Positions 49,448-56,889 of a stretch of DNA of 64,000 nucleotides are shown here, in pieces. The translations under genes were made by a program, and so were the position numbers. This stretch comes from Desulfomarina profundi (GTDB lineage Bacteria; Desulfobacterota; Desulfobulbia; Desulfobulbales; Desulfocapsaceae), in the NCBI RefSeq assembly GCF_019703855.1, contig NZ_AP024086.1:124001-188000 (forward strand), given 5' to 3'. The notes below the pieces were generated by a model. The model was not told the DNA's origin, ran no database searches, and worked only from the letters and a program-made list of their open reading frames with translations. The number at the start of each line of letters is the position of its first letter. The first letter of the stretch is position 1.

Positions 49448-51781
49448 ATGTTACACGATAATATTTTAAGCGCTATCGGCTATACGCCCCTCGTAAGAAT
49501 CAATAGACTTTTTAAAGATGATTCCGTACAGATATATGGAAAGTTGGAGTCCTGCAATCCAGGTGGTTCCGTGAAGGAACGGATTTCGCTTTCCATGATT
49601 GAAGCGGGAGAAAAAAGCGGCGAGCTGACAAAAGATAAAATCGTGCTGGAGGCTACCAGCGGCAATACGGGTATCGGTCTGGCTATGGTCTGTGCCGCTA
49701 AAGGTTACAGGTGTACCCTTGTCATGCCCGAGTCCGCTTCCATCGAGCGGCGAAAAATAATGCAGGCCTACGGTGCTGAAATTCTGCTCACTCCAGCTAA
49801 AAGGGCAACTGACGGTGCTATTGAAAAGGCCTACGGCATGGCACGGGAATACCCGGAGCGATACTTTCTCGCTGACCAGTTCAATAACGAGGCCAACTGG
49901 CGTGCCCATTATGACCGGACTGCACCGGAAATATGGGAACAGACGGAAGGCAGGGTGACTCATCTTGTGGCGACACTCGGGACATCCGGAACCGTCATGG
50001 GGCTCTGCGCCTGGTTTAACGAGTTTCAGCCCCATGTGAAGGTCATCGCTGTTGAACCGCATCTTGGTCACAAGATTCAGGGACTGAAAAATATGAAGGA
50101 GTCCTATCGTCCCGGTATTTTTGATAAAAATATTCCGTCTGAAGTGGTGTCTGTAGATGATGAACCATCCTTTGCCATGGCCAGGAGTCTTGCTAAAGAG
50201 GAAGGTCTGCTTGTGGGGATGAGCAGTGGAGCGGCTATGTCTGCTGCCATTCATTATGCTGAAAAACTGAATAAAGGTCTGGTCGTTGTTATGCTGCCGG
50301 ACGGTGGTGAGAGATATCTCAGCACACCTCTTTTTTCCATTGAAAAGAAAGAAAAAAAAGAGGATCAACTGCTTTTCTACAATACGATGAGCAAGAAAAA
50401 GGAACCCTTTGTCCCTCTCCAGAAGGGCAGAGCCACTTTTTATTCATGCGGCCCTACTGCTTACGAATTTGCCGACCTCCAGATATGTAGACGCTTCGTG
50501 GTGGCAGACCTTATTACCAGAACTTTGGAGGAAAAAGGGTTTACGGTGGATTCCTATATGAATTTCACCGATATTGATGACCGGACAATTGAAGGCGCGG
50601 AAAAGGCGGGACAACCCCTCAAAGAATTCACTGATCGCTATATAGCCAGTTTTCTGGAGGATATTGAAACTCTGGGAGTTAAGCCGGCAAAAGATTACCC
50701 GAAGGCCTCCGAATATATCGGCAACATGATCGAGATGTCCCATGAGCTGATTCACAAGGGGTATGCTTATGAAAAACACGGTTCCATCTATTTCGATATT
50801 TCCAAATTCAAAAAGTACGGGCGTTTATCCGGTATCGATCTTGGAAAAATTCAACTCGGTAAAACCGTTGACCTGGATAACTACGAAAAAGATAATCCTC
50901 GGGATTTTACACTTCTCAAACGCTCAACACTGGGTGAGTTAAAAAAGGGGATCTTTTTTGAAACAGACTGGGGAAACGTGCGACCGAGCTGGCATGTGGA
51001 ATGCTCCGCCATGGCTACCACCAACCTTGGCTCGACTATGGATATTCATACATCCAGCAGAAACCTGATCTTTCCTCACCACGAAAATGAAATAGCCATT
51101 GCCGAGGCACTGACCGGAAAACCCCTGGCCAATTACTGGCTCCATTCGGAAATGGTTGTGGTTGATTCGAAGAACATGTCAAGGGAGGCCGGTAACAGAG
51201 TAACCTTGCGGGATCTGCTGGCACGCGGATACAGTGGACGGGAAGTGCGCTTCATGCTGCTTTCAGTTCACTATCGGAAGCCGATTAATTTTTCCTTGAA
51301 ACGCCTTGAATCAGTGCGGACGGCATTACGGCGTCTTGATGAATTCACCTGCAAACTGCACTGTCTTCCTCCTGGAATGCCCCATCCCGAGGTAACTGCT
51401 TATGTCTCGACCATGGAAAAACAGTTCTTCCGGGCTATGGATGATGACTTGAATGTTTCAAAGGGGATGAGTGGTATCTATACCTTTATCAAAAAACTCA
51501 ATCCCATTCTCCAGGTGAATCATCTGGATCAGGACCAGAGAAACTATATTCTTGAGACTCTGGAGAAGATTAATCGGGTTCTCAATATCTTCAGACTGGA
51601 AGGCTGTCCACTGGCACCTGATGTCAATGCCCTGATAAAGTTGAGGGAAGAGGCCCGCCTGAAAAAGGACTGGCTGGCGGCGGATGCCGCAAGGGATGAA
51701 CTGGCACGGAAAGGAATCACTGTTATTGATACGGAAAACGGCCCGATCTGGAAACGGATCTGCGAAGGGAAACTGAACTGA
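49448..51781 (+). CDS. Cysteine synthase fused to a cysteinyl-tRNA-synthetase-like domain lacking HIGH and KMSKS
   Basis: A 777-residue fusion. Residues 1-298 are a PLP cysteine synthase: Lys43 in NPGGSVKERI, TSGNTGIGLAM, TLGTSGTVMG and GMSSGAAMSAA, all normal. After a charged linker (SIEKKEKKEDQ), residues 308-777 align with CysRS from end to end. The zinc ligands are kept (Cys334, Cys519, His544, Glu548) as is FPHHENEIA. But HIGH (expected at 343-346) is DLQI, KMSKS (576-580) is NMSRE, and the GGGSD loop is TSSRN. These are the ATP and adenylate-handling motifs, so ordinary aminoacylation is doubtful. It may use cysteine made by the first half in another reaction, or be regulatory. The frame is intact and well conserved elsewhere, so it is not simply a decayed gene. 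Confidence 0.85.
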   Translation: MLHDNILSAIGYTPLVRINRLFKDDSVQIYGKLESCNPGGSVKERISLSMIEAGEKSGELTKDKIVLEATSGNTGIGLAMVCAAKGYRCTLVMPESASIERRKIMQAYGAEILLTPAKRATDGAIEKAYGMAREYPERYFLADQFNNEANWRAHYDRTAPEIWEQTEGRVTHLVATLGTSGTVMGLCAWFNEFQPHVKVIAVEPHLGHKIQGLKNMKESYRPGIFDKNIPSEVVSVDDEPSFAMARSLAKEEGLLVGMSSGAAMSAAIHYAEKLNKGLVVVMLPDGGERYLSTPLFSIEKKEKKEDQLLFYNTMSKKKEPFVPLQKGRATFYSCGPTAYEFADLQICRRFVVADLITRTLEEKGFTVDSYMNFTDIDDRTIEGAEKAGQPLKEFTDRYIASFLEDIETLGVKPAKDYPKASEYIGNMIEMSHELIHKGYAYEKHGSIYFDISKFKKYGRLSGIDLGKIQLGKTVDLDNYEKDNPRDFTLLKRSTLGELKKGIFFETDWGNVRPSWHVECSAMATTNLGSTMDIHTSSRNLIFPHHENEIAIAEALTGKPLANYWLHSEMVVVDSKNMSREAGNRVTLRDLLARGYSGREVRFMLLSVHYRKPINFSLKRLESVRTALRRLDEFTCKLHCLPPGMPHPEVTAYVSTMEKQFFRAMDDDLNVSKGMSGIYTFIKKLNPILQVNHLDQDQRNYILETLEKINRVLNIFRLEGCPLAPDVNALIKLREEARLKKDWLAADAARDELARKGITVIDTENGPIWKRICEGKLN

Positions 51782-51874: not shown

Positions 51875-51951
<77 letters not shown>

Positions 51952-52817: not shown

Positions 52818-54235
52818 TTAGCCTTGCACGGGTATTCCAGCTAATCGGTAGAGAATCGTGTCCCAAAGCTCCTTATACGGATAGCCAGTTGCCAGGCTTA
52901 TCCATACTTTCCGTACCGTGATTTTGACTTTGGCCACAATTATTAATATTTTCAGTCTGATAGTATCGCATTGAGCCCTTGCCATTTCTGTCCCTGTCAG
53001 GCAGAGCTGTCGCAGTGTTTGCAACAGAATGTATGCGATTGACGAGAAGTAGAGGCGTATTTGATTGCTCCTCATTTTACTGGTGCTGGTCCGCGCGGCA
53101 AAGAGCATTAACTGCTGCTCTTTGATTCGATTCTCCATGTCTCCCCGCGCACAGTATATCTGCTCATATAAAACCTTCGCGTCGTACTGTGACTCTGGCA
53201 GCGATGTAACAATAAACCGAGGATTTTCGCCTTTTGGCAAATACTCAGCTTTACCAATAACTCTCCGATACCAGCGCCAGGTATTCAAGGTCCTGCAACA
53301 AAAATCCTTGAAGACATGCGATGAATTACCACTGCATTGGAACAGAGCTTTGACCAAGGCCATTTCTTCTTCTATCTCGGCCTTCAATCGGCTGTTTTTT
53401 TTGCGACACCAAGAACGAAATCGACATCATTGTCTTCGCACCAACTCATCAGTTCTTCACGGCAAAAACCACTATCACCTCGAACAACTATTTGGGTATT
53501 CGGCCACCTGTTACGAATACGTTCAACAATCGGTGCCAACTCTTCCACTGTCCTGGAAGCTGCATCATTATCTGCCGTGCGCAGTCGGGCACAGAGCAAG
53601 TGCTCACCACAGAAAATGTAGAGAGGTAAACAGCAGTATGTCTTGTAGTAACCATGGAAGAACCGTCCCTCCTGATTGCCGTGCAATGGGTCGTCAGTTG
53701 CGTCAACATCGAGGATGATCTGCGGTGGCGCTATTGGCGTTGACTCGAGAAAAATATCAACCAACAGATTGTCTACTTTCTCTTCATCAAGCCCTATCTT
53801 CTTGTACATGCTACCTGAAAGATCACCCTGAGCTGATAGCTCAAGACGATTGAGCGTACTCTTTTGGGCGAGTGGTTTCCCTTTATCTTTTAATGACTTA
53901 CGATCATTGCCTGTGGGATCACTTTTGCCAACAGCTACCGCCAGCATTTGATCTTTTGACAGCTCGTCATGATCATTAAGATCCTCATACCCCAGAGCAA
54001 GACCAAACACCCGTTGAGATACCAGCGAAACAACATCATGTTCTATTCGCCTTGGATCACGGAAATCTGTAAAACACTCTGCAAATCGCCTGACAATTGC
54101 TGTACGCTTTTCAACCTCGCGAAGAAGCAGAGCCCCTCCATCGGAACTGATTGAACCCCCATCGAAATCTGCTCTGATTTCTCGTTTTCCCAGCGCTTGA
54201 AATCTGCTTTTAATTTGAGTACACTCTGTTTTCAT
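52818..54235 (-). pseudogene. IS1380-family transposase, frame broken at an A8 run
   Basis: About 472 residues overall. The first part (ATG 54235) has ADFDGGSISSDGGALLLREVE, LDVDATDDPLHGNQEG (catalytic Asp) and VVRGDSGFCREELM (second Asp). It stops at 53384 after VAKKTAD. The second part, in the -1 frame, continues from NSRLKAEIEEEMALVKAL through VTSLPESQYDAKVLYEQIYCARGDMENRIKE-type residues, holding the final Glu. The switch point is an A8 run (plus-strand T8, 53395-53402) that reads A-AAA-AAA in the first frame, a possible slippery heptamer. Without evidence for programmed shifting in this family, an indel is more likely. Confidence 0.75.
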
Positions 54236-54489
54236 AGGCTATTTTTGTTGTTTGAGTTATCGTTCTGGAATAACGACAATATTACAACATTTATAGCCTA
54301 TTTTCTTTATTTTAATGAGAAATCCGGGCTAGAGTGAAACGAAAGGCGAGCGTTAGCGGAGGGCTTGCCCCGAGGATCTTTATTTACCAGAGAGGAAAAG
54401 AAATCAAAAATAACATATGAGTCATTATGCTGGAATAAACTTTTGAAAGAATTTTATTCTGCAACCCTAAATCTAATTTAATTACGTCT

Positions 54490-55560
54490 TTGGTTATAAA
54501 AGTGTACATTATTCTCCTTCTAATTGTGTTCTTCTTTTTTTGGTACGTAAAAAACGTCATCAAAGAGGAAGAAAGAATCCATAAAGAAATAATTCTAAAA
54601 AGGCAACGAGAAGAAGCTAGATTAAGAGCGATCAGATTGTCAAATGTCGACAATCTGAGTGGTCTTGAGTTTGAAAAATATATTGCATGGCTTCTTGGTC
54701 GAAAAGGATACCAAGAAGTAGAGATTACAAAGGGATCCGGTGATTTTGGTGTGGATATCGTTGCCTCATTTGGAGGTAGTAAATATGCAATTCAAGTAAA
54801 GCGCTACTCATCAAACGTATCAAGAAGAGCTGTAAGTGATGCGGTTGCGGGTAAAGGCCATTACTTTTGCTCAGAGGCCATGGTTATTACCAACAGTCAC
54901 TTTACCAAGCAAGCAAAAATTTTTGCGGAGAGTGTGAATTGTGTACTGGTAGATCGAGACATCCTCATTTCATGGATTATGGAATGTTACTCTGAAGACA
55001 GGAATTATATTGAGCCAATTGGAGCGATAAATACTACCATTCCTGATGATGTGATGGAGCAAATATGCAAATATGCCAAAGAAACTTGGCCAGACTCCAT
55101 ACACTTGCAACAAACCGATATTGAGATCAATGTTGAAGCCTATAATAAAATTAGTAGGATTAAAGATCGAGGGAATAATAAAATTCCTAAAAAGGTCTGG
55201 AATTTTATTATTCAAAGTGCAAAGGAGGATTCCCATGGGGATTTCAGCATTGAATTAGAAAACCTACAAAACAACATTAAGTGGTGGGAAAATGAACTAA
55301 ATCTAAAAGAAGCTCCTCAGTCAGTCATTAATAATATTTTCAATTACTTTTATGACGACAAATACGAGACACTTTTTAGTAAAAGATATTCTATTGAGCG
55401 TGAGGCAGAAGGTTATCATTTATTGAAAGAATTAAAAAAGAGCAGAAGTCTTCCCAGAATCGAATTTAACAAATTATATGCTAAAGCACAAAGAGAAAAC
55501 CCAAAATCTTACAGAGGTACCTACAACGACTTGAAGACATCACTTGACAATTATAAATAA
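54490..55560 (+). CDS. Membrane-anchored Mrr-type restriction endonuclease-like protein
   Basis: About 356 residues. An N-terminal membrane helix (residues 4-20) and a charged coiled coil (21-48) precede a PD-(D/E)XK nuclease domain of the Mrr_cat type. Key residues: Glu60 in LSGLEFEKYIA, Asp89 in GSGDFGVDIVA, and the QVK site (Gln102, Lys104) in AIQVKRYSSNV. The next 40 residues (VSDAVAGKGHYFCSEAMVITNS) complete the fold. The C-terminal 190 residues are unrecognised and helical. It may cut foreign or modified DNA at the membrane. It sits between two IS elements in the island, an expected place for defence genes. The start is TTG 54490; GTG 54502 is an alternative. Confidence 0.75.
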   Translation: MVIKVYIILLLIVFFFFWYVKNVIKEEERIHKEIILKRQREEARLRAIRLSNVDNLSGLEFEKYIAWLLGRKGYQEVEITKGSGDFGVDIVASFGGSKYAIQVKRYSSNVSRRAVSDAVAGKGHYFCSEAMVITNSHFTKQAKIFAESVNCVLVDRDILISWIMECYSEDRNYIEPIGAINTTIPDDVMEQICKYAKETWPDSIHLQQTDIEINVEAYNKISRIKDRGNNKIPKKVWNFIIQSAKEDSHGDFSIELENLQNNIKWWENELNLKEAPQSVINNIFNYFYDDKYETLFSKRYSIEREAEGYHLLKELKKSRSLPRIEFNKLYAKAQRENPKSYRGTYNDLKTSLDNYK

Positions 55561-55565
55561 ATTAT

Positions 55566-56889
55566 AGGGTTCTTTGCAAAATAGCCGAATAAAATCATTG
55601 TAGCCTTTAGAAACCATGGCAAGAATATAGAAATTAATGTATATTTACAGCATGTTACATAACGGGACTGCTCTAGATTACTCTCTAAGAGGTGAGGCTA
55701 TGAATCAACCAGGATTATTTGACTACAGCAAGCGCCTTGCACGTATTGATAACGTTGGCGATCCTCTTGCAAAACTCAACGAAGTAATCGACTGGGAGCA
55801 GTTCAGAAAGTTAATTGACCTGTCGAGAGAAAAGCCGAGAAAATCTCCTGCTGGTGCAAAGGGTTATGATTCAATTTTAATGTTCAAAGTTCTGATAATT
55901 CAGGCTCTGTACAACCTTTCTGACGAGAAACTTGAATTTCAAATTCTTGACCGTTACTCGTTTTCGCGATTCCTTGGTATCCGTGAAGGCGATAAGGTAC
56001 CAGATTCTACCACCATATTTCGTTTCAGGGAAGAGTTGGCGAAATCAAACATTATCGAAATCTTGTTTACTCAATTTGACCAGTTTCTCCGTGACAACGG
56101 GTTTCGTGCACAGAAAGGTCAGATTGTAGGTGCCAGTATTGTCCGTGTGCCGATTCAAAGAAATACTCGAGATGAAAATAAAGAGATTAAGGCTGGCAAA
56201 AAGATAAAGTCGTGGAGTACGGCCAAAAAGAATCAAAAAGATATTGATGTCCGGTGGACGAAGAAAAACGGTAAATCATATTTTGGCTACAAAAATCATA
56301 TCAGTGTAGATGTTGGTTACAAGTTTATCCGGAGCTATGAGGTTACCGATGCAAGTGTTCATGACAGCCGGGTTTTTACTGACCTTCTTGATCCGTGTAA
56401 CACAAGCAGGGACGTGTGGGCGGATTCAGCTTATCGTTCTGAAGAATCTCTAACCGAGTTGAAAATACAAGGTTTTCGTGAGCACATTCAGCGCAAAGGT
56501 TCGCGAAAGAAAAAGCTCACCAAAAGAGAACAGCAAGGGAACAGAACCCGATCACGTATTCGCAGTCGAGTTGAGCATATCTTCGGCGTTCAAGCTATGC
56601 GTACAGGAGGAACGCTCTTGCGGGGGATAGGTTTTATTCGAATAATAGCGAAAATTGGTTTGAGAAATATGGCGTTTAATCTTACTCGGTATGTTCAACT
56701 TGTGACTACTTGATGGGGGTAGTCTACTCTGTTTGAAGAAGAACAGAGCAAGCCAGCGAAAAGCTGGTTCAAATGAGAGCATTACAGGCTCATTTGGCAT
56801 CCAGGAATGTACGTTCATTCTCTGCGAGTGGGAATATTTACTATGTGGTGAAATTTCTTGAGCTGAATCTTAATTTTTCAAAGTAGCCT
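55566..56889 (+). mobile_element. IS5-family insertion sequence
   Basis: About 1320 bp. The left end AGGGTTCTTTGCAAAAT and the right end read inward AGGCTACTTTGAAAAAT match at 14 of 17 positions. A target duplication is not evident, which suggests rearrangement or an old insertion. Confidence 0.7.
55700..56713 (+). CDS. IS5-family transposase with a substituted catalytic Asp
   Basis: About 337 residues from ATG 55700, which has GAGGTGAGG just upstream. DUF772 region (FQILDRYSFSRFLGI, PDSTTIFRFREEL) then the DDE domain. The first catalytic Asp, normally in VDAS/VDAT, is Gly144 here (IVGASIVRVP, codon GGT). The second Asp (VWADSAYRS) and Glu (RSRVEHIFG) remain. The protein is probably inactive for transposition. 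The frame is otherwise whole. Confidence 0.85.
   Translation: MNQPGLFDYSKRLARIDNVGDPLAKLNEVIDWEQFRKLIDLSREKPRKSPAGAKGYDSILMFKVLIIQALYNLSDEKLEFQILDRYSFSRFLGIREGDKVPDSTTIFRFREELAKSNIIEILFTQFDQFLRDNGFRAQKGQIVGASIVRVPIQRNTRDENKEIKAGKKIKSWSTAKKNQKDIDVRWTKKNGKSYFGYKNHISVDVGYKFIRSYEVTDASVHDSRVFTDLLDPCNTSRDVWADSAYRSEESLTELKIQGFREHIQRKGSRKKKLTKREQQGNRTRSRIRSRVEHIFGVQAMRTGGTLLRGIGFIRIIAKIGLRNMAFNLTRYVQLVTT

Follow-up and report, generated by a model that had tools for sequence, protein, structure and literature searches.

Cysteine synthase fused to a motif-altered cysteinyl-tRNA synthetase in Desulfomarina profundi: a candidate docking module for tRNA-Cys

The paralogues of cysteinyl-tRNA synthetase (CysRS) tabulated in the accessible part of a 2022 review are the ATP-dependent MshC (spelt MhC in the table) and CysRS*, a protein of Desulfobacterales that is devoid of an anticodon domain and charges a variant of SelC (Mukai et al. 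2017b, via PMC9437257). The same part of the review describes HisZ, a paralogue of histidyl-tRNA synthetase (HisRS) without adenylation activity, which regulates HisG. A link between cysteine synthesis and tRNA-Cys is provided by SepRS/SepCysS (accessible text of PMC5424206). The protein considered here is encoded in a stretch of 64,000 nucleotides from Desulfomarina profundi (contig NZ_AP024086.1, positions 124,001 to 188,000), called the window throughout. Its open reading frame (ORF), at 49448-51781 on the + strand, starts with ATG, contains zero internal stops and encodes 777 amino acids (aa), in which a cysteine synthase is joined to a CysRS-like half. No description of such a fusion was found in the accessible passages of the open-licence literature, including PMC2922099, PMC5424206, PMC8762117 and PMC9437257; in sequence databases these proteins are probably filed as synthetases or synthases.

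The reading favoured here, to which we give an even chance, is that a cysteine synthase carries a former CysRS which, in the lineage of the window, has ceased to aminoacylate and persists as a docking module for tRNA-Cys(GCA). The former CysRS half would bind tRNA-Cys(GCA) without aminoacylating it, so that the tRNA is docked on a working cysteine synthase. The docked tRNA-Cys, probably uncharged, would signal cysteine demand to the attached synthase; alternatively, docking would place the synthase beside tRNA-Cys and the separate CysRS. The most likely role of the CysRS half is that of a demand sensor or docking site; in logic, HisZ is its nearest precedent. A more specific proposal is advanced tentatively, its chances falling somewhat short of even: a tRNA-gated biosynthetic enzyme in which a silenced CysRS directly reads tRNA-Cys, by its anticodon and perhaps its charging state, and thereby determines how active the cysteine synthase is or where it is located. 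Across the family the catalytic motifs are variable, the zinc site is optional, the anticodon reader is fixed and the synthase motifs are intact, a combination that fits a tRNA-Cys docking module. From these patterns in the sequences we infer tRNA-Cys binding, silence of the synthetase, activity of the synthase and control or localisation of the latter by binding. The gene is composed as follows.

49448..51781, + strand: whole ORF of 777 aa, cysteine synthase plus CysRS-like half with altered catalytic motifs (ORF list, translation)
49466..50302, + strand: pyridoxal phosphate (PLP)-dependent cysteine synthase domain of the O-acetylserine sulfhydrylase (OASS) type, aa 7-285 (Pfam and NCBIfam profiles, alignment)
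50309..50359, + strand: low-confidence linker joining the halves, aa 288-304 (predicted local distance difference test, pLDDT, <50)
50408..51316, + strand: CysRS-type class I catalytic domain with zinc ligands present, aa 321-623 (Pfam, alignment)
50474..50485, + strand: DLQI at the HIGH position, aa 343-346 (alignment to E. coli CysRS)
51050..51064, + strand: TSSRN at the GGGxD position, aa 535-539 (alignment to E. coli CysRS)
51173..51187, + strand: NMSRE at the KMSKS position, aa 576-580 (alignment to E. coli CysRS)
51425..51592, + strand: DALR domain, aa 660-715 (Pfam)
51611..51736, + strand: CysS_C anticodon-binding domain, aa 722-763 (Pfam, alignment to E. coli CysRS)

A preliminary description of this gene, made from the letters alone, had reported a single intact frame with a PLP cysteine synthase (Lys43) and a full-length CysRS-like half, and the domain searches bear it out. 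All four Pfam matches exceed their curated cut-offs (PALP 239.8 bits, tRNA-synt_1e 299.2, DALR_2 30.7 and CysS_C 36), and the protein passes the cut-offs of the cysteine synthase profile TIGR01136 (358.7 versus 344.15 bits) and of the NCBIfam cysteine--tRNA ligase profile TIGR00435 (396.8 versus 340). It falls under the cut-offs of the narrower NCBIfam profiles cysK and cysM. An AlphaFold model from a 59-sequence alignment (mean pLDDT 85.4, predicted template modelling score 0.68) superposes on cysteine synthase B (2bhs; Z 40.0, root-mean-square deviation (rmsd) 1.8, 289 residues) and, with aa 307-771, on CysRS bound to tRNA-Cys (1u0b; Z 47.9, rmsd 4.6, 442 residues). Since pLDDT is low in the linker, the relative placement of the two halves is not readable from the model. 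A sub-threshold Pfam match to RuBisCO_large (residues 351-541, window 50498-51070; 24.3 bits, cut-off 30.1) is probably due to chance or a model artefact.

For comparison across the family, 199 loci and the window yielded 193 rows with a best ORF of >600 aa, and 191 of these had >380 residues in the CysRS half. The 191 fusions correspond to 159 distinct ones, the window being present twice (also as L001) and some contigs standing under two locus identifiers. In the synthase half, the PLP lysine of the window lies within NPGGSVKERI, and the motifs TSGNTG, GTSGT and SSGAA are present. The lysine of NPGGSxK is found in 189 of the 191 fusions, with a gap in the other two, and the TSGNTG loop in 111 of 111 aligned rows; at the PLP site, K43, T70-G75 and Q144 do not vary among the 59 aligned sequences. 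The N-terminal half is presumably a working cysteine synthase. At one locus (L276:6884-10948) the fusion ORF reaches 1354 aa, and the ~570 residues that precede its synthase domain are without a Pfam match at 0.001.

The CysRS half has fared differently. As first read, DLQI, TSSRN and NMSRE stand for HIGH, GGGxD and KMSKS, positions confirmed by alignment to E. coli CysRS: both histidines and the glycine of HIGH, three glycines and the aspartate of GGGxD, and both lysines of KMSKS are gone. The case for an inactive synthetase rests on these three motifs having changed together. Because all three nucleotide-handling motifs changed in the window's group, the claim is limited to that group, for which a catalytically silent CysRS half is the likely state as judged from its motifs; it is not made for every fusion. 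The suspicion that this is not simple decay proved sound: local decay or a frameshift was rejected, the frame being intact and the losses common to the whole fusion group. Both HIGH histidines occur in one of the 191 fusions (as HLGH), exact KMSKS in none, and both histidines together with both KMSKS lysines in none. Among separate CysRS of the phylum, 30 of 30 combine HIGH or HVGH with KMSKS; these 30 (L200-L229), out of 40 rows found, are the closest matches rather than a random sample of the phylum. Ten rows were set aside as being short, divergent or duplicates; some of them have HIGN or HLGN with KMAKS, and one has HLGN with KISKS. In a quick tree (81 + 29 rows), the fused CysRS halves cluster together to the exclusion of the separate CysRS, with a support of 100 in the Shimodaira-Hasegawa-like approximate likelihood ratio test (SH-aLRT).

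The window's Cys334, Cys519, His544 and Glu548, named as zinc ligands beforehand, align with Cys28, Cys209, His234 and Glu238 of E. coli CysRS, which we take to be the zinc ligands of that enzyme. All four ligands are kept in 144 of the 191 fusions and at least one is missing in 47; the third ligand position is His in all 191. On the tree, the minimum number of changes (loss or regain) is six for the zinc set, five for the two zinc cysteines, eight for the first His and six for the second His. Two rows, L010 and L039 (apparently one contig), which are included in the counts 47, 23 and 22, are garbled over a short stretch near the second zinc cysteine, most likely through an error in the sequence.

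The preliminary description had proposed that this zinc-bound cysteine site performs a non-canonical reaction, for example persulfide formation or thiol transfer. In the window the zinc ligands are indeed intact, as are Trp515 and Thr374, and the fusion gene lies directly behind dsrP of the dsrMKJOP cluster in seven loci (L098, L099, L101, L102, L103, L104 and L106), an adjacency in one branch of the order that ties the fusion to dissimilatory sulfur metabolism. The Dsr subunits identified are DsrP and DsrM on L106, DsrO on L098 and DsrK on L109. As a general explanation, however, zinc chemistry is not supported, given the 47 fusions without at least one ligand, the at least six changes on the tree and the anticodon residues that are kept. 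Persulfide formation by E. coli CysRS reportedly depends on K73, K76, K266 and K269, the KMSK lysines mattering for this reaction (accessible text of PMC12926118). The equivalents in the window are R379, E382, N576 and R579, and because all four lysines are replaced, persulfide formation by its CysRS half is unlikely. Lysine is found at these positions in 32, 7, 112 and 6 of the 191 fusions, respectively; the K76 position is Lys in only 10 of the 30 separate CysRS, hence a weak marker. Overall, a reaction at the zinc site appears quite improbable. Among the roles listed at the outset, conservation favours tRNA-Cys binding.

Conservation was compared by region at 145 sites that are >=95% conserved in separate CysRS, region borders being our own. 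The fraction also >=95% conserved in the fusions is 6/38 in the N-terminal Rossmann half, 14/30 in the connective-peptide region, 12/36 in the C-terminal half with the zinc site, 3/21 in the KMSKS and stem-contact part, 2/8 in DALR and 7/12 in the anticodon domain. In this last domain, the window's R733, R737, W742, D746, R749 and D761 correspond to R423, R427, W432, D436, R439 and D451 of E. coli. In the E. coli complex, R427, D436 and W432 contact G34, and R423 takes part in a water network (accessible text of PMC12684709, citing Hauenstein et al. 2004). The equivalents of R423, D436, R439 and D451 are invariant in the 191 fusions; position 427 is Arg in 187 and Lys in four, and position 432 is Trp in 168, Phe in 18 and Tyr in five. 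The full set, with an aromatic residue at 432, is present in 187 of 191 fusions (155 of 159 distinct) and is complete in all 22 distinct fusions that lack a zinc cysteine. When triples of sites were drawn at random from 60 sites of the anticodon domain, a fraction of 0.0007 of the draws was as conserved as R423/R427/D436, a test over sites and not over independent lineages. Fourteen strongly diverged members tell the same story: at positions 423, 427, 432 and 436, eight equal the window, five differ at 432 alone (Phe) and one (L170) differs at 427 (Lys) and 432 (Tyr), while only 9/45 to 19/45 of the other sites of the region equal the window. By contrast, the CysRS paralogues that do not read the tRNA-Cys anticodon, CysRS* and presumably MshC, have no such domain.

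These residues bear on two further explanations. In the first, the CysRS half is an allosteric domain like HisZ: free cysteine would be sensed at the zinc of the former CysRS pocket, with feedback on the synthase and no part for tRNA. The precedent set by HisZ, the four ligands of the window and of the 144 zinc-keeping fusions, and the universal histidine at the third ligand position speak for it. Yet the repeated change of the zinc set is at odds with such a sensor, which moreover gives no reason for an anticodon domain retaining its G34 contacts in zinc-lacking lineages; it is considered rather unlikely. In the second, the CysRS half would be an inert scaffold for stability or oligomer formation, a relic of an ancient fusion. 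Many catalytic sites do drift freely, as a relic would allow, but anticodon-domain residues stay near-invariant amid variable neighbours, and eight residues (P336, R349, K443, S446, D475, R492, L498 and K499) are conserved at >=97% in the fusions only. Judging from this pattern, the eight may make up a novel site, either for a ligand or between the domains, and an inert scaffold is highly doubtful.

Several observations weigh against a tRNA-docking module. With the zinc site kept in so many fusions, binding of cysteine may be important in numerous lineages, that of the window among them. Conserved sites are also numerous elsewhere in the CysRS half, notably in the connective-peptide region. 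The residues of the anticodon domain may owe their conservation in part to folding; for R439 and D451 no contact is assigned. The fusion is dispensable, 9 of the 148 good-quality genomes in the class showing no match. The gene neighbours show no link to tRNA-Cys, which occurs in none of 20 stretches across the phylum. The motif losses, which the preliminary description had suggested looking for in other fusions, are common to the group, but 13 least-derived members of the 191 are near-canonical, retaining HxGx, KMS(K/R)S, the Asp and zinc, and may still be active. Separate CysRS with HIGN or HLGN and KMAKS exist in three fusion-bearing genomes (L266, L267 and L269), and the KMSK lysines are reported to be unimportant for aminoacylation by the E. 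coli enzyme, so that loss of KMSKS alone is no proof of inactivity (accessible text of PMC12926118). These last three points, with the TIGR00435 score, also favour an enzyme that still aminoacylates or ligates cysteine by means of unusual motifs. For the window this is very unlikely in view of the combined loss of the HIGH, GGGxD and KMSKS residues and of the standard-motif CysRS in the same genome, a separate protein of 490 aa with HIGH, GGGKD and KMSKS. The presence of this normal cysS had been suggested as a check on the fusion.

Many carriers of the fusion are sulfur-cycling bacteria, and a tRNA-gated enzyme of this kind would be in use throughout much of a phylum in which sulfate reducers abound. 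In the class, 219 of 257 genomes carry the fusion (139 of the 148 of good quality); in a sample of the phylum 117 of 297 do so (105 of the 245 of good quality), with 42 family codes beyond the window's order by hand count. Matches were counted at a threshold of 1e-100, stricter than the best unfused matches (CysRS 2.4e-90, cysK 1.1e-75); the counts of 219 and 117 take in matches truncated at contig ends. Among the best 80 of 194 matches in named genomes, the relatives with the fusion are Desulfobulbales and other Desulfobacterota, the cultured Desulfopila aestuarii and Desulforhopalus singaporensis among them, the titles reading Desulfobacterota or broader (Deltaproteobacteria, Proteobacteria, Pseudomonadota). 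One genome (G042) holds two full-length fusion copies, 66% and 65% identical to the window protein.

The idea that the fusion is usually the sole CysRS was rejected, a separate CysRS being present in its own genome and in most fusion-bearing genomes sampled. In the phylum sample, a per-genome hand comparison by best E-value, with a second look at doubtful cases, found a second CysRS-type match in all of these with few exceptions: only the fusion was found in G466, G261 and G332 (82, 79 and 62% complete), the second CysRS is a mere fragment in G278, and it lies in split pieces in G295 and G320. In G295 (L270, G295:C2:128200-131800), of a lineage with a zinc-less fusion, the separate CysRS is split over two overlapping reading-frame pieces by an apparent frameshift.

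The genome of the window also has a tRNA-Cys(GCA) gene, located through one of 11 matches to a looser pattern (the stricter gave 0); as this was a pattern search only, further tRNA-Cys genes are possible. A separate cysE-type gene (TIGR01172, E 3.3e-46, 158.5 bits, under the cut-off of 210.65) followed by cysK lies downstream of metX-like and metW-like genes, which we name from sequence likeness. These genes bear on a further alternative, tRNA-dependent cysteine synthesis, in which the PLP domain would act on an amino acid carried by tRNA-Cys, as an analogue of SepCysS. The idea is suggested by the SepRS/SepCysS precedent and by a single chain that combines a PLP cysteine synthase with what is probably a reader of tRNA-Cys, but the OASS active site looks ordinary and the cysE-type gene and cysK exist separately, which makes it extremely unlikely.

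Upstream of the fusion in the window lie P-II (glnB-type), glnD-like (presumably so, from likeness), glnA and DciA/DUF721 genes. Among 80 loci and the window, the fusion was recovered in 77, of which 71 have an upstream ORF and 41 a DciA-like gene upstream. In the 20 stretches across the phylum, the most widely common neighbour families occur in six and five; in L288 the fusion was not picked up by the script. Downstream, a tRNA-Arg(TCT) gene (window 51875-51951) lies ~90 bases beyond the fusion gene. Farther on come ORFs at 52818-54235, which we take to be transposase-like, and mobile DNA in which an ORF for an Mrr-type restriction endonuclease (54490-55560) is followed by a DDE transposase (55637-56713). 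The tRNA-Arg(TCT) gene may mark the edge of this mobile stretch (52818-56713).

Several known systems resemble the fusion in part. By profile, fold and active-site motifs its N-terminal half is an ordinary member of the CysK/CysM family, from which the fusion differs by its added CysRS-derived half of ~470 residues. Profile annotation could label it cysteine--tRNA ligase, TIGR00435 being over its cut-off, though a synthetase stripped of its motifs is indicated. The family, which runs from near-canonical to zinc-less members, offers a graded natural series showing stepwise loss of synthetase catalysis. MshC, the mycothiol ligase, is likewise CysRS-derived, acts outside translation and shares the catalytic-domain fold (3c8z; Z 43.1, rmsd 2.2, 376 residues). 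MshC is not known to have the CysRS anticodon domain, and the alignment of its 414-aa PDB chain with the CysRS half ends at residue 328 of 471; the window protein misses the cut-off of the NCBIfam MshC profile (TIGR03447, 195.6 versus 485.1 bits). CysRS*, also a second CysRS-type protein, and from related bacteria (Desulfobacterales), is the reverse case, since the fusion has an anticodon domain and altered catalytic motifs. SepRS/SepCysS shares the link between cysteine synthesis and tRNA-Cys, but consists of two other protein families, and amino acid loading on tRNA is not indicated in the fusion. HisZ is a class II and CysRS a class I synthetase relative. In HisZ-HisG, a synthetase relative without adenylation activity serves an enzyme that makes the same amino acid (PMC9437257, accessible part), as would be the case here. 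HisZ is a separate, HisRS-derived subunit, whereas here a half of CysRS type by profile and fold is fused to the cysteine synthase and appears to retain recognition of the tRNA anticodon. If tRNA reading holds true, the supply of an amino acid would be linked directly to its tRNA through a synthetase that was inactivated but still recognises the anticodon. MshC and CysRS*, both of which lack the anticodon domain, would be the opposite case.
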